64,000 bases of DNA from Aurantiochytrium sp. KH105 (lineage: Eukaryota > Sar > Bigyra > Thraustochytrida > Thraustochytriidae), in the NCBI GenBank assembly GCA_003116975.1, contig BGKB01000159.1, forward strand, positions 1-64,000, read 5' to 3'. The stretch's first letter is position 1, and every line of letters starts with the position of its first letter. The notes beneath the pieces were generated by a model. That model made no database searches. It was not told where the DNA came from and worked only from the letters and a program-made list of their open reading frames with translations. Positions 25,601 through 60,574 of this stretch are shown piece by piece. The position numbers and the translations under genes are program-made.

Positions 25601-28600
25601 CCGCGTTGCGCGTGCAGAGCGCCGCGCCATGCGTCAAATGCGTGCCTTTGACGAATAAGCCTCTGTGCAGTGCGTTTTTGCTTCCACGTTGTAAAATGAG
25701 CTCTTTCGACGAAAGCACGCTTTTGGGCGTTCACGCCCCTTGCTAACCTCCAGCGTACAAATGCGCTTGCGAGGTGCGCGAGCGAACAGGTACGAGCTTG
25801 GTTTGCCTGATCTCTGGCGACAAGGCGCCACGCCGTAAAGGCATCTTGAAGTCGCGATTGGCCAGCCCACAGCAAATTAGCCTCGAGACTCTGGACGCTC
25901 GACAAATACATCGACCAGAGATGCCACGCTTGATACAGTGACCGTACTTTCCATCGCGATGCCTGCCTCTGAAGCAAAGATTTTCGTCGCAAGCTCACCA
26001 AAGTATTCAGCTTCCATGCATGGAGCACTTCGCGGGCGACAAAGACCGCTTGTGCGTCCTGAAGGACAGGGCGGCGCGTGAGGTCGACCCAGTGATCCCA
26101 ATAACATGCCAATCTTGCTGACATAATTCTTTCCAGCGCCGCGCAGACGGAGTCCGACTTCTTTCTGTGTACCGTGCACGTTTCGCGTTCTTTTGCAGTC
26201 CAAACTTGCCAACGAGCGAAGCAGCTTGCTACGTTTGCGCAATGAGTGCCGTCTCCAGAGAGCGACCAGAGAATACGAAGGATTGCCCAGCGTCGCCGGT
26301 GCACCCATTGGCGCCACATTGCAAAAGTTGAAATGAGGGTCGCATGCTCAAAAGCTGCAACGTTGCACGAGATGCAGTTGCATCCGTTCAGGGACAATCT
26401 TCCGCCATCAGTGAACTGCCCCCACGTGATTGATGAGCCGGGAGAGGGCATGTCTCCAAACATGTACGTCAGGCCGGACGAGGTGGGACTCTCTGGCCAG
26501 ATTTCACGCAGAGCAGGCCTTATAGGCACCGGCGATGGGTACCTCGTACTCGAGAATGACTGCCCAGCATTGAGTTCGCGGACTTTGTTGACTTGCAAAA
26601 GTTTGCCTGTCTGAAAATGATCGGCGCGATCTGTAAAGGATCGAAAGCTCATTTGCTTTGATCTGGCTCTTTCGGGGTTTCGAAGCCTGTCTCGCGTGGT
26701 GGCTCGTTTTCGCGACGGAAGAAACTCTTGTGCAGACCAACACGTTTGCACAACCGAGGAGTTCACGTTATTGCTTTCGTTGTCATCTTTCTCACGCCCG
26801 ACAGGATTGCGGTGCAAAGAAGGAAGAGAGATGCGTGCCTCATGATTTATGTCGGACTTCGCGCCAGTTTCCTCATAGAGCTGACTGTTTGAGGAATCTA
26901 TTGAATCCAAACGTTTCAGACCTGATTTATATCTCCCGGATCTTTTGCTTTGCACCGATTCTCTCTCCTCCCACTTCTCCGCAGCCTTCGACATTTCTGA
27001 CGAGCTGGAGCGCCTCTTCATTCTCTCGATTAAAACGTCTGTCTCATGTCTGCAGCTTTGTGTGCTCATCAAAGAAGTCCTTCTTTCCCTTATCTGAGAC
27101 CTTTCATGTGCGCCTTCCGACGCGCGTCGCTGCCCGGCAGAACGAAGCCGATTTTTACTTTTGCGACTATTGCTGTGGTCAGTGCTCTGAGCAAAACGAG
27201 ATACATTGTTGGTGTGTGCGTCAGGAATTTTGTCATCCGGCATGAGAACGCTTTGGCTGCCGTGATGATCTTCCTCCTCGCTTGAATGAAATGTGCACTC
27301 CATTCCACTGCTCCGAAAGTGATCCCCATCACTTGTGGAGAGGCTTGAAGCGGCTTCGCTTTCATAATCTTGCTTTTTACCATTTCTCGATGCAGATTTG
27401 GGCTTTTTCTTCTCGAAAATCGTTTTCACTTGTCCGCGATCCTCTTGACTTGACACTCCCGTATCTTTCTCTTTCTGGTGTCTCTTCTGAGACCATCTAT
27501 CCTCGACCTCATCGATGAGCTCCGCTTGTTGTTCTTCATCTCTGTGCTTGCCACGACGAACTCGCGAGGATCGCGTGATCGCTGCAGAGACATCGTGCAC
27601 AAGATTCTCATGCGATTCTTCTTCTGTGTTGACGGCATCAAGTTTGACCACGTTTCTTTCTTCTTCAAGCTCATACAGATGGAAGTTCCCTTGTTCCTGC
27701 TGTGACTGGGAAATGTGTCTGCTTGCATTTCTTCCTCCTCGCCGTGACAAAGCATGCTGTTCATGTCCTGTCCGATGTTTATCAACCACGTCGGCAACAT
27801 TGTCTTGCTCAGTTGTGAGCCTCTCAACTTGGCCATCAGCGCATCGTTCGTGACCGAGGTGGCAAGACTTGGCTTGGTTGGTTCCTTTGCTGCGTTGACG
27901 TTGATATCCCGAGGAGTTCCTTCCTCCTCCTCGTGACAAAGCATGCTGTTCATGTACTGTCCAATGTTTACCAAGCACGTCAACAAAATCATCTTGCTCA
28001 GTTGTGAGTCTTTCAAATTTGCCATCAGCGCATCGTTCGTGAGCAAGGTGGCGAGACTTGGCTTGATTGGTTTCTTCGCTGCTTCTATGTGCTGGCCTCG
28101 TGACCTTATCAACGCTTGCCTCGACTTGGTCATCCTCGAATTGCTTCGAGGTGCATGTCCGTCTCGAAGATCGCGAAAAGTGTGCACTTGCACCTGCGAC
28201 AGGGTAGGAAGAACCAATCCCGTTCGACGCGACGTGAAGGTCGTCATCGGCTTCAGTTTGGCTTGGGCGACGGTGATGATGCTGACGTATTCTGTGAGAA
28301 CTCATTTGGCGCTTGTCGGCGTTGGTCGATGGCTCTACATCTCCATCTGAAATGTCGCTTTCAGATTGCCCAAATCGCGAAGTACGATCGGAGCGAGATG
28401 CAAAATCCCTCAAAGTATGTTCGTCAGAATTCGCAACGCCGCTTTCATCGGCCAGGCGGAATCGCACATTACTCCTTTTTCTCGTCTCTTGGTGCCCTTG
28501 GACAGCAAAACTTGTCATTTCCGACTCATTTTCGGCGTCACAAACCTTTTCGTAAGCTTGCGGTGAACGATCATTGAGCGAGCTGCTCGGGCTTGAATAT

Positions 28601-31600
28601 GAAGATGACGCACAAAACATTTCTGCCCTATGCTTCATTCTACTCTCGCGATGCTCATCGTTTTCGGGCAAATGAGCATTCTTGCTCCCCTGCCGACTGG
28701 CCTTTTTGAAATGATGCACGCGGTGCTTTGCATTTAGTTGGCGACGATTGCCGGCCAGAAAGCTACCTTGAGAAGAGCTTGCTGAAGAACTACTCGAAGA
28801 AGAGTCCGACTCCTCCTGTTGGCGCAAACTTGCGCTCTGTCTCCTGCGCGATGCTTTGTGTTGACCATTTAGATTCCTGAGATGAGCTGGATGACTTTGA
28901 GCACCCGATATCGAAGAGTGCATCCTTTGTTGCGGATGAAGCTGCGCCGAGCTATCACCGCGATCGCTCGGTTCGTTGAAATCTGACGTCTTTTGGGCTT
29001 TGTGCTGACGCCGGACCGCTCTTGCAAAACCATAGCGGAGGTGTCGGCTTCGTAGACGAGCACTTGCGGAGCCATGCGGAAAGTAAGCTCTCAAGACTGG
29101 GGTCGGTGCGCTGCCCACCGAAAACGAATCCTCCGAAAACGTCCCTCGGTGGGTTGGCGGGGACAGAGATGAACTCTCAAAACGCGTCGCAGAGTGACCA
29201 CTTCCAGAAGAATGATGCGCGGCATGAATCGGACGGCGCAGAAGCTTTTCACGGCTTGAGTAATGGGAGCGATCGGCCTCCACTGAATCACCGGCATCGT
29301 CGGACACTTCACTGTCGGTCCCAGGTCCTTGCTCAGAAAATGCGATCCCGGCACTTTGCGTATCATGCTCTCCATCATTGACGTTAGATGTGCTCACATG
29401 ACGTGCTGACAGATGACGCCGCTCACGAAGTCCTTGAGAAGAAATTTGCGCATTGGTATTGTCCTGTTCGCTTTGATGTTCCTTGAGCTGCACGTGCCGT
29501 TGATGCACATAATGGTGAGAGCTTGGTGCTGCTGTGAGAGCTTGATGCCGATACTGCCATTGCAGATGCTGGTGCTGCGAGAGATGAGGCGAATGCTTGC
29601 TCTTCTTGAATTGAAGGTGTGAAATCAGGCGCTCTGTCCGACGTCGCTCAATCGACCCGAGGCAAGCAGCAATCTTCCACGGTACGAAATAGTCGCGCAT
29701 TGTTGCCACCGTAGCCTGATGTCGTTGAACAGCATCAGTCCAGGCCCGAAGAACTCTCTTTTTTAAGCGCTTTGCACTTTCACTCGCAAGATGATGCAGC
29801 TTCTCTGGCAAGGCAATGCTTGCATAATGCCATTTTGCAAATGCTGCTTCTTGCGCAATTCGTCTGCTGCGCGCAAGCGCAATATTGACAATGCAGGCTG
29901 CTCGCCACCTTTCTGCCCTTTGCATCTGCGAAAGCTCAGCCGTGCGGGCTCGCCACGTGTGTAGCGTTGCAAGCAATCGATTTTGCGTGCGTCCCTTGAA
30001 GCGCACAAGGCAAATAAGGAGGGCGCGGTGTTTTGCAGCAACGTGCAGCAAGTGTCTTGCTTCACAAGCAAGCTTGGCAGCCAGTCTCCACTGAGAGAGA
30101 AGCTTGGAGAGCAATCGCTGTCTTTTTCGGTGAAGAAATTGAGCAACCTGGCGTTCATTTGCGGCCTGTGACTGCCGCCAATACAATGTCCATCCAATAA
30201 AAGCCTTTGTGATGACGTGTCCCATTCGTCTGGAAGCGTTCACGTGAGCCCATGTACGCCACCCTTTAAAAATATGCGACACCCACGCGTCGGTCCTCTT
30301 CTCTTGCATCGCTTTGACGGCCGTTCGAACGCGCACAAATCTCCGCCAGGACGACATACACCTCGTAAGAAGCCGTCTCCGCCTTTTCTGTTCAACGCGC
30401 AAAAGTAAGTTGGTCTCGCGAGCCCATCCACGAAGCGCGGCGCCCGCAAGAGTCCGCCGCGTAATAATAGAGACGCGAGCAATGGCCTTTTTCTGGTTTG
30501 CTCGAGTTCGCGCCGCAGCACAGAGTTGGCGTAGAGCCTCTCGGCGTATGCGCTGCCCTTGCGACCTGACGATATGACTCAGGGCAACTACTCGTCTCGT
30601 GTGCATTCGCCATCGGTCGACAGCGTCGAGCTTTTGTCTTTTGCAAGATCGAAGAATGACTCTTTTCAGGGACGTCATTCTGAGTCGATATTTGTCGAGA
30701 TTGTCCAAAGCCTGCAAGCAGCTTCGTCTTTTCACAAGACGAGCAAGCCTCTCGAGCATTCGCCCGTGTTCAAGCACTCGACGTAGCCTCGCAAAGGCGG
30801 TGCGAAGAGAACGCCGCTGATAATTCTTTGATGACCAGCAGAGCGTGCGACTGAGTTGCGCGCAGCGCTCGGCACGAAGCATAAGATGTTTCCACTGTCC
30901 AAAAGCAGCATGCACCCTTCGCGTGTGCGCTCTACCAAAGACGGCAAAGCAGCGACAGAGGCGGAATACTCGTTGCGCGAGGTGAACGTGCGCAGTAGAT
31001 AGCTTGGCAAAAGCGAATCGCAGCTTTGCGCGTGCACGAAGAGCCAAGGCTCTCTGCAATTTCTCCAGGCAAATTTGATCATGCTCCCGCGCACTTGCAG
31101 CGTGGCGTCGCAGTCGCGAAAATGCCTGAACACGAACATGCCGTTGATGTTGTCGGATCGCATGGTACAATTTGTAAAGAACCTCGACGCGACGTATGAC
31201 ATCGAGACACTCCCATGTGAGCTGAGCCTCTCCAAGCACGAGGCACCTGCGCTTCCATGTTGCAAAGTGGAGTCGCTTAAGTCGCCGACTCGCCAGAGCG
31301 CAAAGCGTCATCGCTGCACGACGATGTCGGCCTGGTACAAAGCAAGACCAACCCTCCTCATCTTTTTCTTCGCTCGATATCTCCGCCGGATGATCAGGCG
31401 AGGCAATAAAGCTAAGGGCATCACCCTCGCTGTCGGTGATCGTTGGATAGGCCTCCTCCAAAGTCTCAATGCTTGCACTTGAACGAAGCGCGAGACTTTC
31501 TTTTGCGTCCAAGGAAATCTCGTCCACATGAGAAGGTTCTGAGGAGGTCTCGTCCGCATCGGACTCAAGGTAATGGCCGCACACCCCACACAAAGTTGCT

Positions 31601-31863
31601 CCGCGAGCATTCGGCGCTCCACACGGACTACACAGGACCCATTTTGCTTGTCTCGTTCGCTGCTCCGATCGACTTAATTTTGGTGTCGCGATGCAGTCTT
31701 GATCAAACTCCATGTTTGCAGCAGCCAAGCTCAAACGCAAGGTGACTCGATCCTCGATCTTGACCACGCCTAAGCGCTCGTCCTCGCCCTCGTGCTTGTG
31801 CTCGTCAAGAGTGTCAAGCGACGCGTCCCAAGAGCCAGGCGGGCCGGAATGCTTGCCTTGCAA
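19624..31863 (-). CDS. Giant Sfi1-like centrin-binding repeat protein
   Basis: A single uninterrupted frame of 4,079 codons. Near the N-terminus a zinc-ribbon-like module CSPCGAP...LCGVCG has four cysteines (78, 81, 92, 95). Residues about 170-740 and about 1840-4060 are built from repeated helical units with hydrophobic and Trp spacing, such as LARWKARSLYAGFIQWQRFA and LRRWKSRRAYAAFQILLRHA. This is the Sfi1 centrin-binding pattern (AxxxLLxxxFxxWxxxxx-type, one unit per roughly 30 residues), so there are several dozen units. Between the arrays (about 741-1830) lies a hydrophilic Ser/Arg/Glu/His-rich disordered linker containing a 63-codon tandem duplication. Sfi1 family proteins form centrin-decorated filaments at spindle poles, basal bodies and contractile fibres. 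Yeast and human SFI1 are about 950-1,240 residues; ciliates have far larger relatives in contractile lattices. The start could be Met51 instead of Met1. No break was seen. Confidence 0.85.
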   Translation of the reverse strand: MQGKHSGPPGSWDASLDTLDEHKHEGEDERLGVVKIEDRVTLRLSLAAANMEFDQDCIATPKLSRSEQRTRQAKWVLCSPCGAPNARGATLCGVCGHYLESDADETSSEPSHVDEISLDAKESLALRSSASIETLEEAYPTITDSEGDALSFIASPDHPAEISSEEKDEEGWSCFVPGRHRRAAMTLCALASRRLKRLHFATWKRRCLVLGEAQLTWECLDVIRRVEVLYKLYHAIRQHQRHVRVQAFSRLRRHAASAREHDQICLEKLQRALALRARAKLRFAFAKLSTAHVHLAQRVFRLCRCFAVFGRAHTRRVHAAFGQWKHLMLRAERCAQLSRTLCWSSKNYQRRSLRTAFARLRRVLEHGRMLERLARLVKRRSCLQALDNLDKYRLRMTSLKRVILRSCKRQKLDAVDRWRMHTRRVVALSHIVRSQGQRIRREALRQLCAAARTRANQKKAIARVSIITRRTLAGAALRGWARETNLLLRVEQKRRRRLLTRCMSSWRRFVRVRTAVKAMQEKRTDAWVSHIFKGWRTWAHVNASRRMGHVITKAFIGWTLYWRQSQAANERQVAQFLHRKRQRLLSKLLSQWRLAAKLACEARHLLHVAAKHRALLICLVRFKGRTQNRLLATLHTWRARTAELSQMQRAERWRAACIVNIALARSRRIAQEAAFAKWHYASIALPEKLHHLASESAKRLKKRVLRAWTDAVQRHQATVATMRDYFVPWKIAACLGSIERRRTERLISHLQFKKSKHSPHLSQHQHLQWQYRHQALTAAPSSHHYVHQRHVQLKEHQSEQDNTNAQISSQGLRERRHLSARHVSTSNVNDGEHDTQSAGIAFSEQGPGTDSEVSDDAGDSVEADRSHYSSREKLLRRPIHAAHHSSGSGHSATRFESSSLSPPTHRGTFSEDSFSVGSAPTPVLRAYFPHGSASARLRSRHLRYGFARAVRRQHKAQKTSDFNEPSDRGDSSAQLHPQQRMHSSISGAQSHPAHLRNLNGQHKASRRRQSASLRQQEESDSSSSSSSASSSQGSFLAGNRRQLNAKHRVHHFKKASRQGSKNAHLPENDEHRESRMKHRAEMFCASSSYSSPSSSLNDRSPQAYEKVCDAENESEMTSFAVQGHQETRKRSNVRFRLADESGVANSDEHTLRDFASRSDRTSRFGQSESDISDGDVEPSTNADKRQMSSHRIRQHHHRRPSQTEADDDLHVASNGIGSSYPVAGASAHFSRSSRRTCTSKQFEDDQVEASVDKVTRPAHRSSEETNQAKSRHLAHERCADGKFERLTTEQDDFVDVLGKHWTVHEQHALSRGGGRNSSGYQRQRSKGTNQAKSCHLGHERCADGQVERLTTEQDNVADVVDKHRTGHEQHALSRRGGRNASRHISQSQQEQGNFHLYELEEERNVVKLDAVNTEEESHENLVHDVSAAITRSSRVRRGKHRDEEQQAELIDEVEDRWSQKRHQKEKDTGVSSQEDRGQVKTIFEKKKPKSASRNGKKQDYESEAASSLSTSDGDHFRSSGMECTFHSSEEEDHHGSQSVLMPDDKIPDAHTNNVSRFAQSTDHSNSRKSKNRLRSAGQRRASEGAHERSQIRERRTSLMSTQSCRHETDVLIERMKRRSSSSEMSKAAEKWEERESVQSKRSGRYKSGLKRLDSIDSSNSQLYEETGAKSDINHEARISLPSLHRNPVGREKDDNESNNVNSSVVQTCWSAQEFLPSRKRATTRDRLRNPERARSKQMSFRSFTDRADHFQTGKLLQVNKVRELNAGQSFSSTRYPSPVPIRPALREIWPESPTSSGLTYMFGDMPSPGSSITWGQFTDGGRLSLNGCNCISCNVAAFEHATLISTFAMWRQWVHRRRWAILRILWSLSGDGTHCANVASCFARWQVWTAKERETCTVHRKKSDSVCAALERIMSARLACYWDHWVDLTRRPVLQDAQAVFVAREVLHAWKLNTLVSLRRKSLLQRQASRWKVRSLYQAWHLWSMYLSSVQSLEANLLWAGQSRLQDAFTAWRLVARDQANQARTCSLAHLASAFVRWRLARGVNAQKRAFVERAHFTTWKQKRTAQRLIRQRHAFDAWRGALHAQRGIRAGQRKLRLQFYRHRTEILRRTLLTLHRRVSSGRLAQSFRIWALWTARCTHTSRAAGRLVRSRILFALRCGWNALQAHARGSRLLQSMLLQARARGRVAAKREAFQHWKCLASVRSVEAWYTAEHMDASNSFQLVTSLALKQVEARELLAETFASWKLWTKVNEATRRSCIWSQMTWMHWSWRLHTQKAAFQAWCAMVRRHKLLRNTMRHGTQRRKRLAFQRLRDTGVRAGNVCRFVKLVYFCSHKLALRHFFSLWRRRADQMMRLEKARRYSRHMRVAKLMLSQSRFRVGLEICHRVCAASRTAQLARGWRALWVHARCRMVLARALWRWRRSALRKAFGQWLRLQRTQKILERYLWSLYRRTLEGAMVIWRRQAKIARHIESATCARRLERCRSLFQKWAARARRLRKNKTLMKGWHERRRSVRLGIFYRAWARYVSVTKIRRIARVRARILQVRISRLQYGLTRWKTYVTMLRCESEQKNAEKLIRQRLACSIFQGAFSRNDRTRTLMAFRVWRDRSFLAHSLKARFLFQVLRKATFTRMQNKSFRIWVSATSLSKRLNTLDAMLVTRRLRSSFAQWESHAKKMSTYNLFLIQWRTAFLRKAFRGLLAAVQSQQRAKSHMRHVLRILHSQQSRRLASALSTWKAWAHQARVTSAVLRRAKSILQRWRRAKQGAAFAQWKNVHSRSTQILRRTIARFQARGLHAAFSRLHEHARTQKLISRVMWRWSVRALRQAFSSWRERDIEARFYAVKMQALRSAIGRWRHGLTRRTFAQWRSVVHAKKATLGRACLFWEKHELAQAFSQLRQCCTFDRVLCKVAARWERRHIATAFRTWREVLAQRDVASLRIQRGCSALLRNRYRAKAAAFAHWASWSRKTRSILVDVLRRWARRIARRGLIHLRFNAQRSRQLEKVLRQWRLRHLATAWQKYKASCLAAKHQAQVVRRLLARWHNQNLYLAFTTWSAKVTQCPAGKELKRVLLQWRIRLVRDAWTRWIAAAQAVQQRRQVCAKVLQQWKTRCARNAFRSWHGWATKAALAQARLAVAKRVVLHWSLGPVRWAFARLAKYAHCMTLMHSAVQRILQSRRSRVLSETWKKWTRASDYAARANRLCKRIILRWRRRALVAAMSRWRSMCHRAKQVEHVIRKWNIARHTKLAAGFQRWKTNACRVRRLMQRVVRIALLHGAQRGFEALRSNARKLAHQKRAVRVMRRWLNRRCALAFRQWTLYTSAKAAAISAEGAALSNAALADEAARPFSAVLVQSVGMTESQRRWSSASLLRCLARWQKKRLHAAWSLWRNCVRIQRDICVRLEAMRRFLRRWKSRRAYAAFQILLRHARGASQLQTVEVTRRRSLRAFVQRWKTRHKRAAFLKLKAYAASAVLEARETMLRRQCVRRLLSHSKTSKLRSAFQRWQQRAAGLMHAEQVVSFRHQFLHRFLARWKARSLYAGFIQWQRFAAHFRAAEQERGLKMRFLRRLFQQGQVSRLRSALRIWQENAVAEGYAEQIAMFRRNTLRGFIMRWKTGRQRAAFAVWKTTVYEKAQRDRLMSRVISRLRFRHIKDALGQWQKLARTLSCARRRLLQASVRNALRHWKELVERGAALERATRRLFSWTKVYWKRRVGLAFLRLWRHATKICAVERTLVKWRQWRLQLGWKQWCFQVMWSKAAQQHLVLEKRCALFRLWSRDQLHRTRARKLEEAWLRLSGRALKRTERLRSQMIARMIRRCDSLRIRRSWARWKVIVERQRLLDHLVVQAKRACDRRLKIRTLRGWQLAHRESRARAERFVRVYTMQEQRWALRLWSASHERAVRFEGLRLQRQSRLMEESWARWRKRMQLARAAKVLRARVEQVMTLKSWEVSTTRLAFACLARHACSCKRIARYESLVLRTGRISASAKELLQQAKVFGAWRAWKVKVRKDRQIVRALGRIDDAWTMAYAQQAFCRLRIHALNEQAGRSQRHRLEAAASIRQVGDRARESLLQLQLSRSSASRF
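27740..28115 (-). repeat. In-frame 189-bp (63-codon) tandem duplication inside the Sfi1-like linker
   Basis: Two adjacent copies with a period of exactly 189 bases: gtgacaaagcatgctgttcatg begins at 27744 and again at 27933. In protein, TNQAKSRHLAHERCADG...HEQHALSRGGGRN is followed by TNQAKSCHLGHERCADG...HEQHALSRRGGRN. The copies differ by scattered substitutions, so the event is not very recent, and the frame is kept. Confidence 0.9.
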
Positions 31864-50356: not shown

Positions 50357-52141
50357 CTTCTTGCTGCGCGCTGCCGAGTGGAGATGCGCGGGGTCTCTCC
50401 TTGCTGCTCGCTGTCGCGGGCACGCCGTCCGCGCGCGCGCGCCTTGCGGTCGCTCGAGGGCCTCACTTGGGCCGGCGCCGCCGGATTGAAAGTCGCCGCT
50501 GCGCGATGCTATCGCGCGCGACCACGCGTGCGCGTGCGCTGTCTGCGCGTACCACCCGCCTCTCCGCCGGAGACCGCTCGCTCGCTCGCGCGCCCGCTCG
50601 CCCGCTCGCCCGCTCGCGCTTCTCGTCACGCACGTACGCACGCACGCTCGATTGGCGCTCTGTCTATCTGACTGACTGTCTGTTTGTCTGTCTGTCTGTC
50701 TTCTCCTCCCACTCTCTGCTTCTCTTGGCCTTGTTGGCAATAGATAAACCAAAAACAGCTCATAACTGGCAGCAGCAGCAGCAGTTGTCACAGGGGAAAG
50801 ACAAGGTGGGTGGTCGCATCGCACTGCGCCATGCCAAAAAACTGGCTGCAACTGCAGCGGCTGCGGCTACTTTCTTTTCGAGGCCGTCAGCGCGGCGTGA
50901 GAACAGCTCGTCGTGCTCGCGCTCTGGTAGAATAAGAGTCGGCTGCAGAGGAGGGGACGCTCGCTTCCGAATGGCCAGTGATCGATCGTCTACGGCGCCG
51001 TTGGTGTGGCCAAACTCTTGGCTTTGACGTGCAATATTTGAGTTCTGCTCTGCGTCTGCTGCAGCTTTTGGGCCGCCGGCAGCGATCATCTTAGTTGATC
51101 GACGCGATGGTTACATGTGAGCGCCATCATAAGCGTGCTGCTGGTGCGTGTCGTTCAGAAGGCTTCAGCACTCCGCGACGCTGACTCTGACCTCGAGGTC
51201 AGAGGTCGCGCTAACGTGCGTTCGCTCAGAAGCTCCAGCCTGCAGCAGCAGCTGCGGCAACCGCAACTACAAACCGCCATGGCGCGTCAAATGAATTCAT
51301 CCAACGTCTCCTCTTACGACAAAAGCATCACCTTCGGTCTACTACACTCTGCAGTCAACGCGACCACCTCGCTGCACCTCGCGAGGCCCTCCATTCGCTC
51401 CCTGCTCGCCTTCAACTGCACACCGGGTCCCCGCGCGCACCCTCCCTGCGAGCGGGGTCACCCGTGACCGCCTTTTCTCCTACTCTCTTCCTACCCCTTT
51501 CTCTATCCCCCTCCCCCCTCGCCGAACCGGCCAGTCTTCAGCGTGCACAGCTCGCGCTCCGTCCTCGCGCTCAAGCCTCGCTCGCCCAGCCGCGCTTGGC
51601 CTCCTCCGCTGCGGCCCGCGGCCCGCGCCCGCGCCGGCCGCGGCTCGCGTCGCGCGGCAGCCGCCGCCTCCCTCGCCGCCGCTCCGCGCGCTCCGCGCGC
51701 TCCCTCCGCTGCCGGTCGCACAGTCTCTTCGCCTCCGCGAGCCTGGTGCTTTGCGGCGGCTGGTTCGGGTCCGACAAAAGAAAGCACAGCGGCAGTGTCA
51801 GAGTGACTAACAGTAACACCAAACAGGGTTTGCGATTTCGACGGCGCCGAGACGCAGCGCCGCCTCCGCCACTCGCACGGCCGAGCAGGCCGGCGGAGAG
51901 CGCGAACGCGCAGCGGCAGAACCCGAAGCTCGCCGCGGCGCAGCAGCTGCGCCCGACCGGCCGGTCCCTCGCCCGCGGAGGCAGACGCGCGCCTCGCGCG
52001 GTGCACGTCGCGCATTTTGGCGCGGCGGCAGCGGCGCCGGAGCAGAGCGAGCGCGCAGTACCTTTTCAGGAGGCCGAGCGAGCGAGGTCGAGCGGGAGCA
52101 GCAGCAGGAGCAGCAGCAGGAGGAGCTCGCGCGCGAGCAGG
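50357..52141. promoter_or_regulatory. Divergent region between PH-domain and TPR-protein genes
   Basis: About 1.8 kb, the longest gene-free stretch here. It includes a (CGCTCGCC)-rich tract and (TGTC)n at about 50665-50701, a short CAG run at 50769-50784, and a GC-rich block from 51530 to 52140 whose open frame continues into the TPR gene but looks compositional (Ser/Arg/Ala). Both promoters presumably lie here; I recognised no RNA gene. Confidence 0.4.
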
Positions 52142-55100
52142 ATGGGCTGCACGATGTCCAAGGGGACGCACGAGGGCGGGAGGCTCGAGAACCACATGCA
52201 CCTCTCGCGCGGGCTCGGCTCGCACAAGCGCAGGACCAAGAAGCAGAGACCCGTCCCGGAGGCACCCCAGGATGAGGAGGTGCTTGCGCGCTCCGAAGGC
52301 TCTGTGTGCAGCCGCAGCAGCAGCAGCAGCGCAAGCGCCAGCGCCAACTCGGGCAACGCGGGCGCCGCGAACGCAACGACAGGCAAGCTTGGCGCGGCCG
52401 TCTCCCGTCTGGCCAAGAAAAGGAGCAGCTACGAAGGCAAGAAAGACGTTCGCCGCAAGGTGCTCTACACGATCAAATCAGAAGGCCTCGAGGATCCCGC
52501 CGCGTTCAGCCTGGCGCAGGGATCGAGCGAGGCCGCCGCCGACGTTGCCGCCAGCCTCGAGAATGAAATCGTGAGGTTCAGGGGCTTTCGCATGTCTGAT
52601 CTCAAGGAGTTCTGGCGCACTTTCGTCGCAGACGAACACGTCGTGCTTTACGAGGCAAAAAGCGACATCGCTGCGGCCCACGTCAGCATGGGACAGACGC
52701 TGTTTCGCGTCAAAGAGATGGACAGTCAAGACCGTGTCCTGTGTCGCGCCGCGTTTCGACGAGACGAAATCGAGGTCCCACTTGATCAACTTCGGAGAAA
52801 GGAAGTAGACCAGTGGACCGTCGAGGACGTGTGCAACTTTGTCGTGGTCCCACGAACAACAAAGACCGATTGCTTCTTTGAGGATACCTGCTCCGGCGAC
52901 GAGGCCTTTGGCAGGCCTTTCGAGGGCGCATTTGTCGTGCATGCGCGCCAAGCCCGCATGGCCTCGCTTGTCCAAAGCCTCGAAACGCACTTTTGCGAGC
53001 ATGGAGAACCTCTTGATAAAACTTACGTCTGGATCGACACCTTTTGCGCCAACCAGGCTCTCCTTTCGCAGGACACGCCACAGACGGATCACGCGCAAGT
53101 GACCGACTTCAAAAAAGCAGCGCGCAATGAGAGGGCCGGTCCACACGAGAGCGACCATGCTAGTCTCTTAGGACTTCGCCGCAAGTTGATTCGCTCGACG
53201 TTGCACAAAGCCCAGCGACGCTTTCAAGAGACGATTGTATTCATCGAGGACTGCCAGGATCCAGAACCCATGCGTCGAGCTTGGTGTCTCTGGGAAATGT
53301 ACGGTGCCGCAGTTGGCACAAGGCATCCTATGAACCTCGTCTTTGGCGCAGGTACTGACGCAAATGTGTCGGCCTGGCTGTGCGACGGGCGTGGCGGCGA
53401 CGAGCTCCTTCGGGCCATTTACGAGATTGACATGCGAACCATGGAGAGCCGGAACGATGGGGACCTTTCTACGATCCGCAAGGCCATACTTCGGCTGCCT
53501 GGAGGTCTGCCCGAATTCAAGGCCACTGTAGTCTGGTGTCTCTTGCGCTGGTTCCGTGAGCGCGTCGAGCAAGCGGTCATTGTCGCGGAGCGAGATGCTG
53601 CCGAACCCGCGCGAGATCGCTCGCTCGCCCATTTGCTTGTCAACGCCGGTGGATTCATGCGAAAGATGAACGAGTTCGACGTCGCATTTGGTTACTTTGA
53701 CCAGGCCGTGCGCATCTTTTCACGGATCGATGGTTCGCAAAGCGTCAACGCCGGCATGGCCAAGCATCGCGCTGCCGTCGTTCGCCATGCACAGGAACGC
53801 TACAATGAAGCCTACTCTCTCTTCGACGAGGCTCTTTTTATCAAGCGCGCCCACTATGGCAATCGACATGTGATCGTTGCCGATCTTCTTCACAACATGG
53901 CAGGCTCCGCGGCAGCGCTTCAAGAATACGAAGAGGCCGCGGAGCTCTATGCCGAGGCACTCTCTATCAAGCGGGAAAAGCTTGGTCTCGAGCATGCCTC
54001 GGTGGCAAACACGCTTCATGATCTCGCCTTTGTTCGCAGGCTGCAGGGTCAATGCGATTTGTCCCTGGCACTCTACGGTAAAGCTCTTGCGATTTACAAA
54101 AACGCTCTCGGACCTCGGGACGCCGCTGTGGCGCATACACTCAACAACATGGGGGCTGTCAAGGAGTGCCAGGGCCATTTTGACGAAGCCATTACGCTGT
54201 ACCGGGAAGCACTTTCGCTACTCCGCGAGACGCTAGGCGAGCGCCACGCTTCCGTTGCGGAACCTCCAGCACAAATGGCCGCGCTGATGGAGGCCCAGGG
54301 CAAGCACGCAGAAGCGCTCGATCTTTTGCAAGAGTCGGCCTCTATCCGTCGGGAGACCCTTGGGTCGCGGCATGAGTCAGTTGCCGACGCGCTCGAGGGT
54401 ATGGCGGTCATCAAGGATACCTTGGGCGAGCGTGATCAGTCTCTCGAGCTTTTCGCAGAGGCTCTGATCATTCGCAAAGAGTCTTTGAGCCACCCATCGC
54501 GACCACCCGTCGGAGCTGTGTCGTTTGGCGATGAAAATACGATCATATCCAGTGAGCATGATCCAAGCATCTCTTCTCCGACTCCCGCTCGATCGTCCAG
54601 CGTCTCATCGACGGTGAATAACAGAAGGCGGTCGGTCGCAGACACACTTAACAACATGGCCATCGTTTCTGGGTCACAGGGGAAGCATGACGAGGCGATC
54701 GACTTTTACGGTCAAGCTCTTGATATGTGTCGCGACACCGACGGCGAGCGCGACGTGGCGGTGGCCAACATGCTTGTGGGGATGGGTTCAGCCAAAGTTG
54801 CCCAGAACAAGTTTGACGAGGCCCTACAAATGTACAACCAAGTGCTGGAAATCAGACGCGATAAACTTGGAAAGTCTCACCTTTCTGTCGCCGATACGCT
54901 GCAGGACATTGGCGCGATTAAACATGCGCAAGGCAAGTTTGTTGAGGAGATCAGCATGTATGAGGAGGCCATGACCATTTGCAAGGTCTGCCTCGGGGAG
55001 AGACACCGAGCGGTGGCCAACGTGCACAACAACTTGGGCGGTGCTTATGATGCCCAAGGCGAATATCGCAAGGCCCTGGAACAGTACTCTGAAGCCTTGG

Positions 55101-56218
55101 ACATTTACACGGAAACAACAGAGGACAAGGATGCCGATAGCGCCATAGCCTCGACGCTCAATAACATGGGCATTGTGAAAAAGTCCCTCGGCGAGTACAG
55201 CGAGGCCCTCGCCCTCTATAAACGTTCGCTGGCGATCAAGCGCCGCATTTGGGATCACGAGGCCAACCTTTCCATCGCTGATACTACGGGCAACATTGCT
55301 GCGATCAAAGGTGTACAGGGCGACCTCTCTGGTGCGTTGGCAGACTATGAGGAGACTCTTTCCATTAAGCGCACCATCCTGGGCGCCTCGCATCTGAATG
55401 TTGCGGAGATTCTTGTCAACATGGGTGTGATGGAGAAAAATCAAGGCAGGTTTGATGACGCCCTCGAGCATTTTACCCAGGCGCTGGAAATTCAGCGTGC
55501 GCATTCGCCGCGGGATGCCCGCGTGGCGCAAACACTCAACAACATGGCTGTCGTCAAGGGTGGACAAGGTGAATACGAGGGGGCTCTTTTGCTTTGCAAA
55601 GAGGCTTTGGACATCAAACGCGAGGCTCTTGGCCCGCGCCATGACTCCGTCGCCGACACTTTGAACAACATGGCTTTGGCGAAAGAAGCGAGCGGCAACG
55701 GAGACGAAGCCTATGCGCTCTTTGAGCAAGCGCTCTCGATTCGCAAAGAAGCTCTCGGCGAGAGGCACCTTTCCGTGGCTGACATCTTGAACAACATGGC
55801 TATTGTCAAGGAGGAACAGGGAAGAGACGAAGAGGCGTGGACGCTGTACGCAGAAGCACTGTCGATCCGCAAGTCTGCGCTCCACGAGCGCCACTCGCTA
55901 GTTGCGGATTCGCTCAACAACATGGGTGCGGTGAGAAGGATGCAGGGCAAATACGATGAGGCCTTGGCACTCAATACGGAGGCCATGGATATCTATCGAG
56001 AGACCCTCAGCGAATGGCATCCATCCTTGGCGCGGTCCATGTTCAACATGGCGCTCGTGCATGAAGGACTCGGAGAGTTTGACCAAGCTCTCGAGTACGC
56101 GCAAAAATCTGAGCTCATCTGGCGCAAGACGCTCGGCGACAATCACAGAGACACGCTCAGTGCAGAGTCTCTTGTGGAGGACTTGCGATTGGCTGTTGTC
56201 GCCTCCGCTCAGGGATGA
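52142..56218 (+). CDS. Predicted acylated TPR protein with N-terminal 'WIDxFC.NQ' domain
   Basis: The ATG at 52142 gives MGCTMS, fitting N-myristoylation plus Cys3 palmitoylation, and 1,358 residues; the frame is open further upstream but that part is compositional. After a Ser/Ala-rich segment comes a folded region (about 140-490) with VVLYEAKSDIAAAHVS, TYVWIDTFCANQALLS (about 295-310), ETIVFIEDCQDPEPMRRAWC and LWEMYG (about 365-390). This resembles a domain found next to TPRs in algal and stramenopile proteins usually labelled nephrocystin- or kinesin-light-chain-like. Then come about 19 TPR units of 42 residues (about 494-1335), typically VADTLNNMA...G..DEA..LY.EAL.I....LG..H, the kinesin-light-chain type. 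A Ser-rich loop of about 45 residues interrupts after unit 7. No kinase or NB-ARC motif was seen. A membrane-tethered signalling scaffold is inferred. Confidence 0.8.
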   Translation: MGCTMSKGTHEGGRLENHMHLSRGLGSHKRRTKKQRPVPEAPQDEEVLARSEGSVCSRSSSSSASASANSGNAGAANATTGKLGAAVSRLAKKRSSYEGKKDVRRKVLYTIKSEGLEDPAAFSLAQGSSEAAADVAASLENEIVRFRGFRMSDLKEFWRTFVADEHVVLYEAKSDIAAAHVSMGQTLFRVKEMDSQDRVLCRAAFRRDEIEVPLDQLRRKEVDQWTVEDVCNFVVVPRTTKTDCFFEDTCSGDEAFGRPFEGAFVVHARQARMASLVQSLETHFCEHGEPLDKTYVWIDTFCANQALLSQDTPQTDHAQVTDFKKAARNERAGPHESDHASLLGLRRKLIRSTLHKAQRRFQETIVFIEDCQDPEPMRRAWCLWEMYGAAVGTRHPMNLVFGAGTDANVSAWLCDGRGGDELLRAIYEIDMRTMESRNDGDLSTIRKAILRLPGGLPEFKATVVWCLLRWFRERVEQAVIVAERDAAEPARDRSLAHLLVNAGGFMRKMNEFDVAFGYFDQAVRIFSRIDGSQSVNAGMAKHRAAVVRHAQERYNEAYSLFDEALFIKRAHYGNRHVIVADLLHNMAGSAAALQEYEEAAELYAEALSIKREKLGLEHASVANTLHDLAFVRRLQGQCDLSLALYGKALAIYKNALGPRDAAVAHTLNNMGAVKECQGHFDEAITLYREALSLLRETLGERHASVAEPPAQMAALMEAQGKHAEALDLLQESASIRRETLGSRHESVADALEGMAVIKDTLGERDQSLELFAEALIIRKESLSHPSRPPVGAVSFGDENTIISSEHDPSISSPTPARSSSVSSTVNNRRRSVADTLNNMAIVSGSQGKHDEAIDFYGQALDMCRDTDGERDVAVANMLVGMGSAKVAQNKFDEALQMYNQVLEIRRDKLGKSHLSVADTLQDIGAIKHAQGKFVEEISMYEEAMTICKVCLGERHRAVANVHNNLGGAYDAQGEYRKALEQYSEALDIYTETTEDKDADSAIASTLNNMGIVKKSLGEYSEALALYKRSLAIKRRIWDHEANLSIADTTGNIAAIKGVQGDLSGALADYEETLSIKRTILGASHLNVAEILVNMGVMEKNQGRFDDALEHFTQALEIQRAHSPRDARVAQTLNNMAVVKGGQGEYEGALLLCKEALDIKREALGPRHDSVADTLNNMALAKEASGNGDEAYALFEQALSIRKEALGERHLSVADILNNMAIVKEEQGRDEEAWTLYAEALSIRKSALHERHSLVADSLNNMGAVRRMQGKYDEALALNTEAMDIYRETLSEWHPSLARSMFNMALVHEGLGEFDQALEYAQKSELIWRKTLGDNHRDTLSAESLVEDLRLAVVASAQG

Positions 56219-56515: not shown

Positions 56516-57775
56516 TTACAAGCCCCAGAGTGGGACAAACTGGTTGCTGTATGGCATGCGCTGAGGGGCGTCAAAGAAGCCGTGGTGCGCGGCTTGCATA
56601 GGATGGTGACGCCTCATCTGCGGGACGCGACGAGCTTGGTTGAAGTTCTGTCGTTGAGGCTTGCGCTTTGGGATTGTAATGCGCAACACGCCATTACGCA
56701 GCGTGTAAGTTGTAGCGAGCGGATTGACGCGAGGCGCGCTGACATCGAAGACGGCTGGCTCGCGGTTTGGCAAGCGAACTTCGAGCTCTCCTGAAGAGCG
56801 GTCAAATGCAACCTCGACGTCGCGAAGAGTCAAATCCTGAGGGACTTCGCAAAGGATCGTTGCTTCGTCGGCGTTCTCGCCAATCTTGTATCGCAGCGGC
56901 GACTGAGCGTGTGCCGGTGGGCGTTTCGTAGCGGACGTTTTCTTTCCCTTCTTTTTGCCGTGAGTGGCCTTGGGAGATCTCGCGGCGGTCTGCTCGGAAG
57001 CCTGCTTTGGCTCCGACTTGTTTTCTGGCGACTGCGTGCTCGCTTCGTTCTCGTCTGAAGTGTCCATGGCGAGCTCGCGCGATTCTTGCTTGGGTTCCAC
57101 ATCCTGCTTCTGCTGCTTCTGCTGCTGCTGCTGCTGCTGCTCCTGCAGCAGAGCGCGAAGCTCACGGTCGCGGGCGGCGAGTTTCTTGGCGCGAGCCAAA
57201 GCCTGATCCGCGCGGGGCAACACCTTGCCGTTAATGCGCTTCACGAGCTCACGACGACGCGAGCGCAAGCTCTCGTCGCCATGAGATTCGACGGCGTCGA
57301 GATTAATGAGCTCGCGCATGAGTGTCTCGACCATGACGCCGTGGTCCTCCACAAGAGACGTAGTCGCGACCTTGCTGAAGGTGCTCAAACCGCGCTTAAG
57401 CGCCTTGAGCATCCATACGTTTGCAGCTACCATCGCACTTTGTGTCCGGAAGCGCTCTCGGCTGCGCGAAACCTTGAGCGTGAGCAAGTTGACGCGCTTG
57501 CCGATCTCTTGAAGCTTGACGCGCGAGGCTTCGATCTCTTTGGCGAGTTCGTCACTCTCGCCCATCTCGCAGTCCTCGTCCTCAGCGCAGTCGTGGTCGT
57601 CTTCCTCCACAGATTCGGCACGATGCTCGGGATTTTCGGCTGCTGCTGCTGCTGCTGCTGCTGCTCCATCAGCCTCAGGTTTTGCAGTTGCGTCGAGCGC
57701 CATTTCTTCGTGGTCACTCATCACTTCCTTGATTTCTTGCTGCTGTCCTTGCTGCTGTTGTTCCTGCTGCTGCAT
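56516..57775 (-). CDS. BAG-domain / alpha-crystallin (Hsp20-like) fusion co-chaperone
   Basis: A 419-residue protein. Residues 1-75 are Gln-, Ala- then acid-rich; Met19 (57721) is an alternative start. Residues about 75-192 are helical and end in a BAG-domain signature: VMVETLMRELINLDAVESHG followed by DESLRSRRRELVKRINGKVL, which holds the Arg/Lys-rich helix that contacts Hsp70's nucleotide-binding domain in known BAG proteins. A poly-Gln run (from a CTG/CAG tract at about 57107-57141) and a Lys/Ser linker follow. Residues about 293-372 look like an alpha-crystallin domain: YKIGENADEATILCEVPQDL, VEVAFDRSSGELEVRLPN and the classic ending TLRNGVLRITIPKRK. So one chain would couple Hsp70 nucleotide exchange with client holding. 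Upstream heat-shock-element-like sites support a stress role. Confidence 0.78.
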   Translation of the reverse strand: MQQQEQQQQGQQQEIKEVMSDHEEMALDATAKPEADGAAAAAAAAAENPEHRAESVEEDDHDCAEDEDCEMGESDELAKEIEASRVKLQEIGKRVNLLTLKVSRSRERFRTQSAMVAANVWMLKALKRGLSTFSKVATTSLVEDHGVMVETLMRELINLDAVESHGDESLRSRRRELVKRINGKVLPRADQALARAKKLAARDRELRALLQEQQQQQQQKQQKQDVEPKQESRELAMDTSDENEASTQSPENKSEPKQASEQTAARSPKATHGKKKGKKTSATKRPPAHAQSPLRYKIGENADEATILCEVPQDLTLRDVEVAFDRSSGELEVRLPNREPAVFDVSAPRVNPLATTYTLRNGVLRITIPKRKPQRQNFNQARRVPQMRRHHPMQAAHHGFFDAPQRMPYSNQFVPLWGL

Positions 57776-58195
57776 GTTACTAACCCTCCAAACTACGAAG
57801 CCACTTTACTCTCTTTGCAACCTTGTTCTTATGGATGTGGTTCTTGTTTGTGCTTGCGCTGGTGCTTTTGACTCTTGCGCTTTGGTCAACTCGTAGATTG
57901 GGATCTGCAGCTGCTGCGCGCACCTGGCCCGCAAGGGCTCCCGGCCGAGACTTTTCCCGAAGGCGCGGCGGCCCTTCGCGAAGATTCTCGATTTTCCCCG
58001 AAACTTTCCCGACTCTTCGCGAAAATTCTTTATTTATTCTCTCGATTCTAGAACTTCTGTTGGCTCTGTCCGTCCAATGTATTTTGAAAGAAAAGTGTAT
58101 TTCTTCTTTCATACCCCCCACATGTGCCGGATTTTGTAGTTAGAAAAGAGAAGAACCAAATGGTAACGGGGGTTAACTAATAACTTATTGCGGGA
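57776..58195. other. Intergenic promoter region of the BAG/Hsp20-like gene
   Basis: 420 bases between the aminotransferase stop and the BAG/Hsp20-like start, both genes on the minus strand. It carries the heat-shock-element-like cluster annotated separately and AT-rich sequence near 58028-58040. No gene was seen. Confidence 0.6.
57954..58053. promoter_or_regulatory. Cluster of heat-shock-element-like sites
   Basis: Four perfect TTCnnGAA cores in 100 bases: TTCccGAA (57954-57961), TTCgcGAAgaTTC (57975-57987), TTCgcGAAaaTTC (58016-58028) and TTCtaGAA (58046-58053). Two are full three-unit elements. They lie about 180-280 bases upstream of the BAG/Hsp20-like start codon. HSF binds arrays of alternating nGAAn units in all studied eukaryotes; its action here is inferred. 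Confidence 0.75.
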
Positions 58196-59911
58196 TCAGT
58201 GGTTGGCGTCGAGCCAGGAAGCGAGGCGCTCAAGAACGTCAGGCACGTTTTTGCGACCAAATCCGAGCCGGAAACAATTCGGATCCTCGCTGAGCTGGTA
58301 GACGCTGCTGGGAAGAAGCATGATGCCGGCGTCGTTCACGAGCGCCTGGCAGAACGCCAGTGTACTCGGCCAGCGCGCCGCGAGCGCAGAACCAGCGCGC
58401 ATGCGCGGAAAGCTAATGGTTCCGGCCTTGGGTGAGGCATAGTCGAATTCGGACTGAAAACGAGAAAAGAACTTATCGACGGCCGCGAGTCCGCTGCGAA
58501 TGATTTCCATGTTGCGCGCAATAATGTTCTCGCGGTTGCGAAGTGCAATGAGGGCCAGAATCTCGGAAGGCGCAGGAGGACAAATGGTGGTGTAGTCCTT
58601 AAGAGCCTGGACCTCTGCAAGAAAGGCGGCGTCTTGCGAAGCGAGCCAGCCGATGCGCGCTCCGGGCATTGACAGCGACTTGGACACGCCGCAGAGCGTG
58701 ACCGCCTTTGCATAACGCATAAACGCCGGCATCAGCGCCGGCCCGTCAATCTCGAGACCTTGGTACATTTCGTCGCTAAACAAGTACGCATCGTTGGACT
58801 TGCAAATGTCAAGGAGTGTATCCCATTCGGCGGCCGAAAGCGTGGCGCCCGTCGGGTTGTGCGGAAAGTTCACGACAACGAGACGCGTTTGCTCCGTCAC
58901 AATTGCGCGCAAGTCGTCCACGGCAAAATTCCACTGGCCCTGGTCGTTGATTGTGGGCTCCCATTTCGACAGCTTGCACCCAATGCTGCGCGCTACCTCC
59001 ACCAGACTCTGGTAGCAAAGGCTCGGGACCACTACATGATCTCCTGCCCGCAGGAGAGTTTGGGCAGCGAGAAAGATGCCTTCCTCGGGGCACAGCACAA
59101 TGGCATTATCTGCCTCGGGAACCCAATCATTGCAGGCGGCCGCCGACGCAGCTTCGGCGTCGCGGGCGTACTGCCGTGCAATTTCTTCGCGAAGCTCGGG
59201 AAGCCCAGCAGACTCGGTGTATCCCAGGGAGAGCTTGTCCCAAAGAGCCTTGCATTCTTCGTCTGCCATTTCCAGTACTTCGCTCATGGACAAGCTTTCG
59301 CAATCCGAGCAACAAAGCAAGTGCGGCGCGGAGAATTCGTATTGGGCAAAGTATCGCTCGAGCGCAAAGGGACGCATGCGTTTGTCGTCAGCGACCTCTG
59401 TCTTGATCGTCGTTGACGCTTTGCTGGAGGCTGTAGCTACGGGCATTGCGTTCATGGCATCTACATTGACCTCGCATCCCGCTTCGCGAAGCGTCGTCAC
59501 AGCGTCTGCGAGGTTCATTTCCTTGACGAGAACGTAGTCCGTATCGTAGGTGGATACGACAAAGATGGGAATTCCGCGTGCTGCGAGCGGGGCCGAGAGC
59601 TTGGCCACAACACCGACAACTTCGAACTCGAAGGGCCCCTCTACCTTAAGCACACGCCATCCGGTCTCAACTTTTTCAGGCTCATTTTCCGCGCCTCCGC
59701 CGCGCGCCTTTTGCACGTGCGTGAGCACGTCTTCTGCGGTGCCCTTTTCTACGATGAGCGAGGTCTCGTCGCTGGTCCTAGACAGTGTAAAGAACTCGTC
59801 GCGAGTGAGCGCCTCAGTAGTTACTGCCGCCGCAAACTCTGTGTTCGTGCGGTCAACGCGCACGACGGCCAGTTCGTTTGGGAGGACTGTCAGCTTGAGC
59901 TGTGAGCTCAT
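58196..59911 (-). CDS. ACT-like (CASTOR/ACT_7 type) domain fused to a class I/II aminotransferase
   Basis: The Met of MSSQLKLTVLPNELAVVRVD at 59911 starts a 571-residue protein; the frame is open 17 codons more, but the domain begins here. Residues 1-135 match the ACT_7/CASTOR-like amino-acid-sensing fold: WRVLKVEGPFEFEVVGVVAK and GIPIFVVSTYDTDYVLVKE are characteristic. Residues about 170-570 are a fold-type I PLP aminotransferase: YTESAGLPELREEIARQY, VVVNFPHNPTGATLS, the Asp/Tyr pair in LFSDEMYQGLEI, the PLP lysine Lys411 in GVSKSLSMPGARIGW, and a late substrate-carboxylate Arg in NCFRLGFGR. It probably transaminates an amino acid, with possible allosteric control by the N-terminal domain. 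The substrate cannot be read from sequence. Confidence 0.87.
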   Translation of the reverse strand: MSSQLKLTVLPNELAVVRVDRTNTEFAAAVTTEALTRDEFFTLSRTSDETSLIVEKGTAEDVLTHVQKARGGGAENEPEKVETGWRVLKVEGPFEFEVVGVVAKLSAPLAARGIPIFVVSTYDTDYVLVKEMNLADAVTTLREAGCEVNVDAMNAMPVATASSKASTTIKTEVADDKRMRPFALERYFAQYEFSAPHLLCCSDCESLSMSEVLEMADEECKALWDKLSLGYTESAGLPELREEIARQYARDAEAASAAACNDWVPEADNAIVLCPEEGIFLAAQTLLRAGDHVVVPSLCYQSLVEVARSIGCKLSKWEPTINDQGQWNFAVDDLRAIVTEQTRLVVVNFPHNPTGATLSAAEWDTLLDICKSNDAYLFSDEMYQGLEIDGPALMPAFMRYAKAVTLCGVSKSLSMPGARIGWLASQDAAFLAEVQALKDYTTICPPAPSEILALIALRNRENIIARNMEIIRSGLAAVDKFFSRFQSEFDYASPKAGTISFPRMRAGSALAARWPSTLAFCQALVNDAGIMLLPSSVYQLSEDPNCFRLGFGRKNVPDVLERLASWLDANH

Positions 59912-60574
59912 TGTTCTTTCTTTGCTCAAAAGGTGATCTCTCTCTCTCTCTGTCTCTGGCACGGCGCGGGCTCACCGAGCTTGCGGGTCTGCCTGGCTGG
60001 CTGTCTGTTTATTTGTTCGCCTACTGGCTACCCCCGCCAGCTTGCCAGCTCTCGCTTGCTCGCGTAGAAAGCCGAAAAGCTTGATTCTTTGTTTCTTTAT
60101 TTGGTTGTGCGAATTTTGGGGTTTCCCGAGTCAGAATCTCGAAGCTTTTGTCGCCATCAAACCTTCTCGAAGTACATCCGTCGTGGCGGACGTGTTCGTG
60201 GAACTCTTCCTTGACATTTAGGAAACGTACTACATGCGAGTGTGCGCGCGCGCCACGAGGATGACGAGGCGAATCGGTTTGCAGACTTTTGACAAGAGCG
60301 CCATAGTATACGGCAGCAAGCACTCTTGGGCGCCGGCGGGATCGACCAAGAGCAGCAGCAGCACACACCAGCAATGCAGGCTTTCCATGCCAATGAATGC
60401 CAGTGAATGGATGAAATTGAAAATAGATTGCTTTGTAGGCCTATTTGCTTGGGAAAAGCCAGCCACGAAGGGAAAAAGTTGGTGTATATGTACTACATGC
60501 AAAAAAAGAAGAAGTTGGTCCGCGCCTGCCCGATGGAGACTGACGCCAAAAATTGTCATCAATCGTGTCGGCAG
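59912..60574. other. Intergenic region, promoter of the aminotransferase gene
   Basis: 663 bases between the aminotransferase start and the stop of the next minus-strand gene. A CT run lies at 59938-59956 next to the start. The rest is mixed composition without a protein-like frame; the plus-strand frame from 60407 runs antisense into the neighbouring gene and is not called. Confidence 0.4.

Follow-up and report, generated by a model that had tools for sequence, protein, structure and literature searches.

An uninterrupted reading frame of the thraustochytrid Aurantiochytrium sp. KH105 joins a BAG domain to an alpha-crystallin-like domain (ACD) in one chain, and we read the encoded protein, with a probability of roughly 0.6, as a heat-induced co-chaperone that combines a small heat-shock protein (sHSP) domain with a BAG nucleotide-exchange domain. 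The two-domain architecture, as proposed in the preliminary description of this DNA, is supported by the Pfam BAG match, the fold of the second domain and a second open copy of the gene. From these features we infer that the gene is transcribed and induced by heat, and that its product binds Hsp70, holds clients and hands them over directly.

Reading frame and neighbouring genes

The gene was found in contig BGKB01000159.1 (assembly GCA_003116975.1), of which positions 1 to 64,000, hereafter the window, were analysed. As previously described, the frame is uninterrupted; it comprises 419 codons and runs on the minus strand from an ATG at 57775 to 56516. Its start codon is tentative, as another in-frame ATG lies at codon 19 and the length of the Q-rich N-terminus varies between the two copies. 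The features of the gene are as follows.

56516..57775, minus strand: whole frame of the BAG-ACD fusion, 419 aa, ATG start, uninterrupted
57386..57556, minus strand: long helix (predicted), residues 74-130, which runs into the BAG match and overlaps it (full-length model; low confidence at residues 101-140)
57227..57403, minus strand: BAG domain, residues 125-183 (Pfam PF02179)
56900..57160, minus strand: linker, Q-rich then S/K/E-rich, residues 206-292 (copy comparison)
56663..56896, minus strand: alpha-crystallin-like beta sandwich, residues about 294-371 (profile, fold search, shuffles)
56528..56536, minus strand: VPL close to the C-terminal end (residues 414-416 of 419), like the sHSP IxI/V motif (sequence)
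57949..58030, no strand assigned: cluster of heat-shock elements, some 174-255 bp in front of the ATG (element scan)

The spacing of 100 residues given earlier between the BAG helix and the Hsp20-type ending did not hold, as the GVL motif (RNGVL from residue 360) lies about 170-190 residues further on.

Three other frames of the window were observed. The convergent neighbour of the fusion gene (51464-56218, plus strand) is a 1584-codon frame with 13 TPR_12 stretches. At 58196-59962 (minus strand), an ACT_7 domain (residues 98-160, E 2e-22) precedes a class I/II aminotransferase (E 4.8e-40), a pairing that looked unusual. Further, a 4079-codon, repeat-rich frame with a W-R/K motif occupies 19624-31863 (minus strand), and its repeats resemble, by eye, those of the Sfi1 type.

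The alpha-crystallin-like domain and the BAG domain

On the whole protein, the HSP20 model (PF00011) matched residues 358-384 with an E-value of 0.013, and on the C-terminal 144 aa alone it gave an E-value of 0.0009 and 19.7 bits, just under the cut-off of 20.8, with the alignment limited to profile positions 75-99 of 102 (the last 25). The second domain carries the sHSP-like signature RNGVLRITIPK. When the C-terminal 130 aa were compared with the PDB by phmmer, four matches were obtained, namely Hsp26 (E 0.12), the Sulfolobus Hsp20.1 ACD, aligned along its whole length (E 0.23), and two DprA-type chains (E 1.7 and 1.8). An HMM built from four further sHSP-like proteins that this genome encodes scored the C-terminal part at 14.8 bits, a value reached by 0 of 2000 shuffles (1713 scored, the best at 6.2), and a chance HSP20 match was thereby ruled out. 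In the Pfam list, which extends to E 10 but from which filters remove most matches weaker than about 0.1, no CS profile appeared, and NCBIfam returned 0 families for two queries. The VPL at residues 414-416 is a variant of the IxI/V motif, which the available text of one report assigns to the sHSP C-terminal region (PMC8047445).

The predicted fold was clearer than the sequence. An AlphaFold model of the C-terminal 131 aa, made from the single sequence, had seven strands and a mean pLDDT of 70.5, with 10-residue blocks of 75-90 over model residues 11-80. Foldseek searching of this model against the PDB gave 562 matches at E ≤ 10 and 19 at E ≤ 0.001, the latter consisting of 17 sHSPs and two Sgt1 CS domains. 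Ranks 1-8 were all sHSPs, with the best E-value (3.2e-5) for S. pombe Hsp16.0 (3w1z, rmsd 6.0), and the geometrically closest match was 4rzk_B (rmsd 2.5 over 80 columns, TM by target 0.76). The full-length model, also made without an alignment, repeated the same sandwich at a mean pLDDT of 59.6 and a pTM of 0.26, and the best 50 fold matches listed for it were by name sHSPs or CS-type proteins. The fold search thus ruled out that the C-terminal part is a beta domain of some unrelated kind, and the Hsp20-type ending of the preliminary description proved real, if weak when judged from its profile score.

The main rival reading is that the sandwich is of the CS type (p23/Sgt1/NudC), monomeric and docking on Hsp90 or another partner, so that the protein would be an Hsp70-Hsp90 adaptor. 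In the C-terminal model, strands 42-46 and 53-56 are joined by six residues only, and the beta6 loop therefore seems to be missing. Plant and bacterial sHSPs use this loop to dimerise, and CS domains have a short connection without it. The Sgt1 CS domains at Foldseek ranks 9 and 19, followed by further CS and NudC entries, also fit a CS-type sandwich. However, the archaeal sHSP 4rzk aligned by phmmer across the loop region with single-residue gaps only, sHSPs took all of the leading fold ranks, Pfam gave HSP20 and, within the filtering described above, no CS model, and the protein resembles sHSPs both in its NGVLRITIPK signature and in its C-terminal VPL. We therefore regard the CS-like, Hsp90-linked role as unlikely and retain the sHSP-type assignment.

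The BAG model (PF02179) reached 41.5 bits over residues 125-183 (cut-off 23.4; E 1.9e-10), a significant match that bears out the BAG assignment made earlier. The "BAG-type helix" RSRRRELVKRINGKVL, from which that assignment had been made, does belong to a BAG domain, but at about residues 172-187 it forms only the end of the match. In phmmer comparison of the BAG part with the PDB, BAG4 ranked first (E 0.0058) and was followed by seven more BAG-family chains down to E 0.82, with one hemocyanin (E 0.29) among the matches. The helices of the full-length model span residues 74-130, 138-165 and 168-225, the first at low confidence, and residues 101-140 had pLDDT blocks of 41-49. BAG entries were absent among the best 50 fold matches listed for this model, so the three-helix BAG bundle is a reading of the sequence. 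Pfam found no ubiquitin-like domain in the fusion protein.

Human BAG1 contacts Hsc70 via E212, D222, R237 and Q245, according to the accessible parts of three reports (PMC6467101, PMC6013550, PMC8755836). With positions placed by hand from HMMER alignments and the human BAG1 sequence, three of these four contact positions appear to be kept in the fusion protein, as E150, D160 and R175 at the positions of E212, D222 and R237, and the position of Q245 is N182. The Botrytis protein BcBAG1 likewise keeps three of the four, lacking Glu212, and in yeast two-hybrid assays it interacts with the HSP70-family members BcBIP1 and BcSKS2 and leaves four other members unbound, as far as the available text states (PMC6467101). 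Aspergillus nidulans BagA keeps all four contact residues, yet in the accessible portion of its description it does not cooperate with its Hsp70s (PMC6013550). Judged from these two precedents, the presence of a BAG domain is no guarantee of Hsp70 cooperation.

These data bear on a second rival, in which the BAG domain tethers without exchange activity and the protein is a stress scaffold whose sHSP-like domain does the chaperone work. An asparagine at the Q245 position and the BagA precedent are compatible with a mere tether, whereas the three apparently retained contact positions argue against it, as does the BAG-containing segment (residues 80-205), which is little changed between the two gene copies (dN 0.007 vs. 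dS 0.082; 2 nonsynonymous codons of 126). A tethering role is accordingly considered quite unlikely, and an exchange domain is the preferred reading.

The second copy and the heat-shock elements

The genome assembly comprises 76.0 Mb in 367 contigs, and a second copy of the fusion gene was found on contig C31, in a stretch that is collinear with the window at 92-97% DNA identity and in which the fusion frame is open. Over 414 aligned codons, the copies differ with a dN of 0.019 and a dS of 0.10. The open frame in both copies, together with dN below dS, ruled out a pseudogene. In detail, residues 286-375 gave a dN of 0.010 and a dS of 0.044, and the last 44 residues are identical in amino acids. 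The fastest-changing segment was the linker (residues 206-285), with a dN of 0.054, a dS of 0.085, and 10 nonsynonymous and three synonymous codons; since only 41 codons differ in total, all per-segment dN/dS values are rough. No indel separates the two linkers; indels are confined to the Q- and A-rich N-terminal part. From this comparison, the linker appears to be almost freely changing between the copies.

That two adjoining genes, or a splicing event separating the domains, were read as one frame is highly improbable, because, for all that the linker is repeat-rich and weakly constrained, the whole frame is open in both copies, the linker has a codon-position GC (0.64/0.43/0.72) like that of the BAG part (0.63/0.42/0.75; coding segments compared only), and an in-frame intron, once spliced out, would leave the two domains fused all the same.

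Most of the families searched in the genome were paired, which suggests that both haplotypes were assembled, and recent duplication may instead be the source of the pairs. One such pair, an sHSP-like protein with a hydrophobic start (L013/L014, on contigs C37 and C167 of genome G000), has a polyQ stretch whose length varies from one copy to the other and is preceded by a perfect 3-unit heat-shock element upstream of the gene.

The 420-bp 5′ intergenic stretch of the fusion gene (57776-58195) contained two perfect 3-unit heat-shock elements, compared with 0.012 expected, and four 5-unit arrays that overlap one another and have two mismatches at most, compared with 0.004 expected; in first-order resampling of the stretch, each element count was reached in 0 of 1000 runs. 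Across the 64-kb window, two of the three perfect 3-unit sites precede the fusion gene (the third is at 35374), as do three of the four four-unit sites with at most one mismatch (the other is at 18439) and all four five-unit arrays. Measured from the ATG, the perfect elements start at −253 and −212 in the window copy and at −262 and −221 in the second copy, which keeps the cluster and has six 5-unit arrays.

Five-unit arrays were found in 0 of 32 other upstream regions, belonging to 16 gene pairs (sHSP, Hsp70-family, Fes1-like, HSF and BAG). These regions were the 500 or 600 bp before the longest ATG-initiated frame, from loci fetched in sets of 8 and 24, and those of L005, L006, L025 and L026 were taken from the sense frame; the control covers the sHSP, HSF and Hsp70 matches that have a locus, and some starts may be placed too far upstream. 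The cytosolic Hsp70 has perfect 3-unit elements in front of it as well (two in each copy), as have one sHSP, one sHSP-like gene and an Hsp70 that looks mitochondrial. Four-unit elements carrying no more than one mismatch precede the cytosolic Hsp70 and a single sHSP copy. As four-unit elements thus occur elsewhere too, the cluster of the fusion gene stands out by size rather than kind. Six matches to the HSF DNA-binding domain were found in the genome. The element cluster, its conservation in the second copy and the HSF domains together make heat induction of the fusion gene likely, as far as can be judged from sequence.

Proposed mechanism and known chaperone systems

The genome gave 22 matches to the Hsp70 family and two Fes1 matches over the cut-off. 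It also contains a second BAG pair (L017/L018), which ruled out the fusion as the only BAG gene. This 143-aa protein has a hydrophobic N-terminal stretch, and its BAG scores fall on both sides of the cut-off of 23.4, at 23.6 bits when the genome was searched and 22.6 bits when Pfam was scanned; it is reminiscent of yeast Snl1. Pieces of a PfaA-like fatty acid synthase scored no higher than 930 bits (cut-off 1010), with a profile that also matches in 11 of 14 control genomes; they are compatible with a stramenopile of the thraustochytrid type but are no proof of one. Scanning of viral contigs with the whole fusion protein gave 458 pattern matches and 0 relatives, and scanning of the genome contigs collection with another sHSP of the genome gave 61 pattern matches and 0 relatives.

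In the mechanism that we propose, HSF would switch the gene on under heat stress by way of the elements clustered upstream. Once made, the protein would bind misfolded clients or other sHSPs by its C-terminal sandwich, and sHSP contact could be made through the sandwich's own groove or by the VPL tail in the groove of a partner. The BAG domain would dock on the nucleotide-binding domain of Hsp70 and stimulate it to let go of ADP and client, and the linker, flexible and about 87 residues long, would allow Hsp70 to reach the held client. Hand-over of a held client to Hsp70 is made more plausible by the kept contact positions, the IxI-like motif and the upstream element cluster.

So viewed, the fusion protein would correspond, as a single chain, to animal BAG3-HSPB8, its nearest working analogue, which likewise joins an Hsp70-binding BAG domain with an alpha-crystallin-domain protein. 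In the available text of one report, BAG3 connects Hsc70 with HspB8, a separate protein (PMC4753570). The animal system thus consists of two proteins, whereas the fusion protein carries the ACD in the BAG chain itself. BAG3 further has WW and PXXP parts and IPV motifs, the latter binding in the sHSP groove.

Similar to the fusion protein, in which three of four appear to be kept, BAG1, the plant proteins AtBAG1-4 and the fungal BagA and BcBAG1 have a BAG domain with conserved Hsp70-contact positions. They pair it with a ubiquitin-like domain in the accessible parts of their descriptions (PMC6013550, PMC6467101), in contrast to the fusion protein, which has no ubiquitin-like Pfam match and has an ACD after the BAG domain. 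With S. pombe Hsp16.0 (3w1z) and the S. solfataricus Hsp20.1 ACD (4rzk), it has in common the predicted sandwich, the GVL signature and, in the variant form VPL, an IxI-like motif. Unlike typical PF00011 sHSPs, it has a low profile score, a short loop and about 293 residues, including the BAG domain, in front of the sandwich.

Among stramenopiles, oomycete BAG proteins are of similar length, four of the five in Table 1 of PMC6013550 having 336-378 aa (for example, PITG_11572 with 363 aa and SDRG_01156 with 336 aa); as they were compared by table entry only, they may share the ACD or not. The BAG-ACD fusion may be wider than the Aurantiochytrium genome. No covalent BAG-ACD protein was described in the titles and abstract starts of the literature searched, a scope apart from domain-architecture databases and most subscription papers. 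That a protist lineage made the BAG-sHSP partnership into one heat-induced, client-passing molecule, independently of BAG3-HSPB8, is a tentative proposal to which we give somewhat less than even odds.

Direct hand-over from an sHSP to Hsp70, helped by a local exchange factor, is hard to test with separate parts. In a natural fusion the ratio is fixed at 1:1 and the linker can be cut, and the question is reduced to one protein and its two halves. If our reading is true, the BAG-sHSP partnership would have been useful enough to become covalent.
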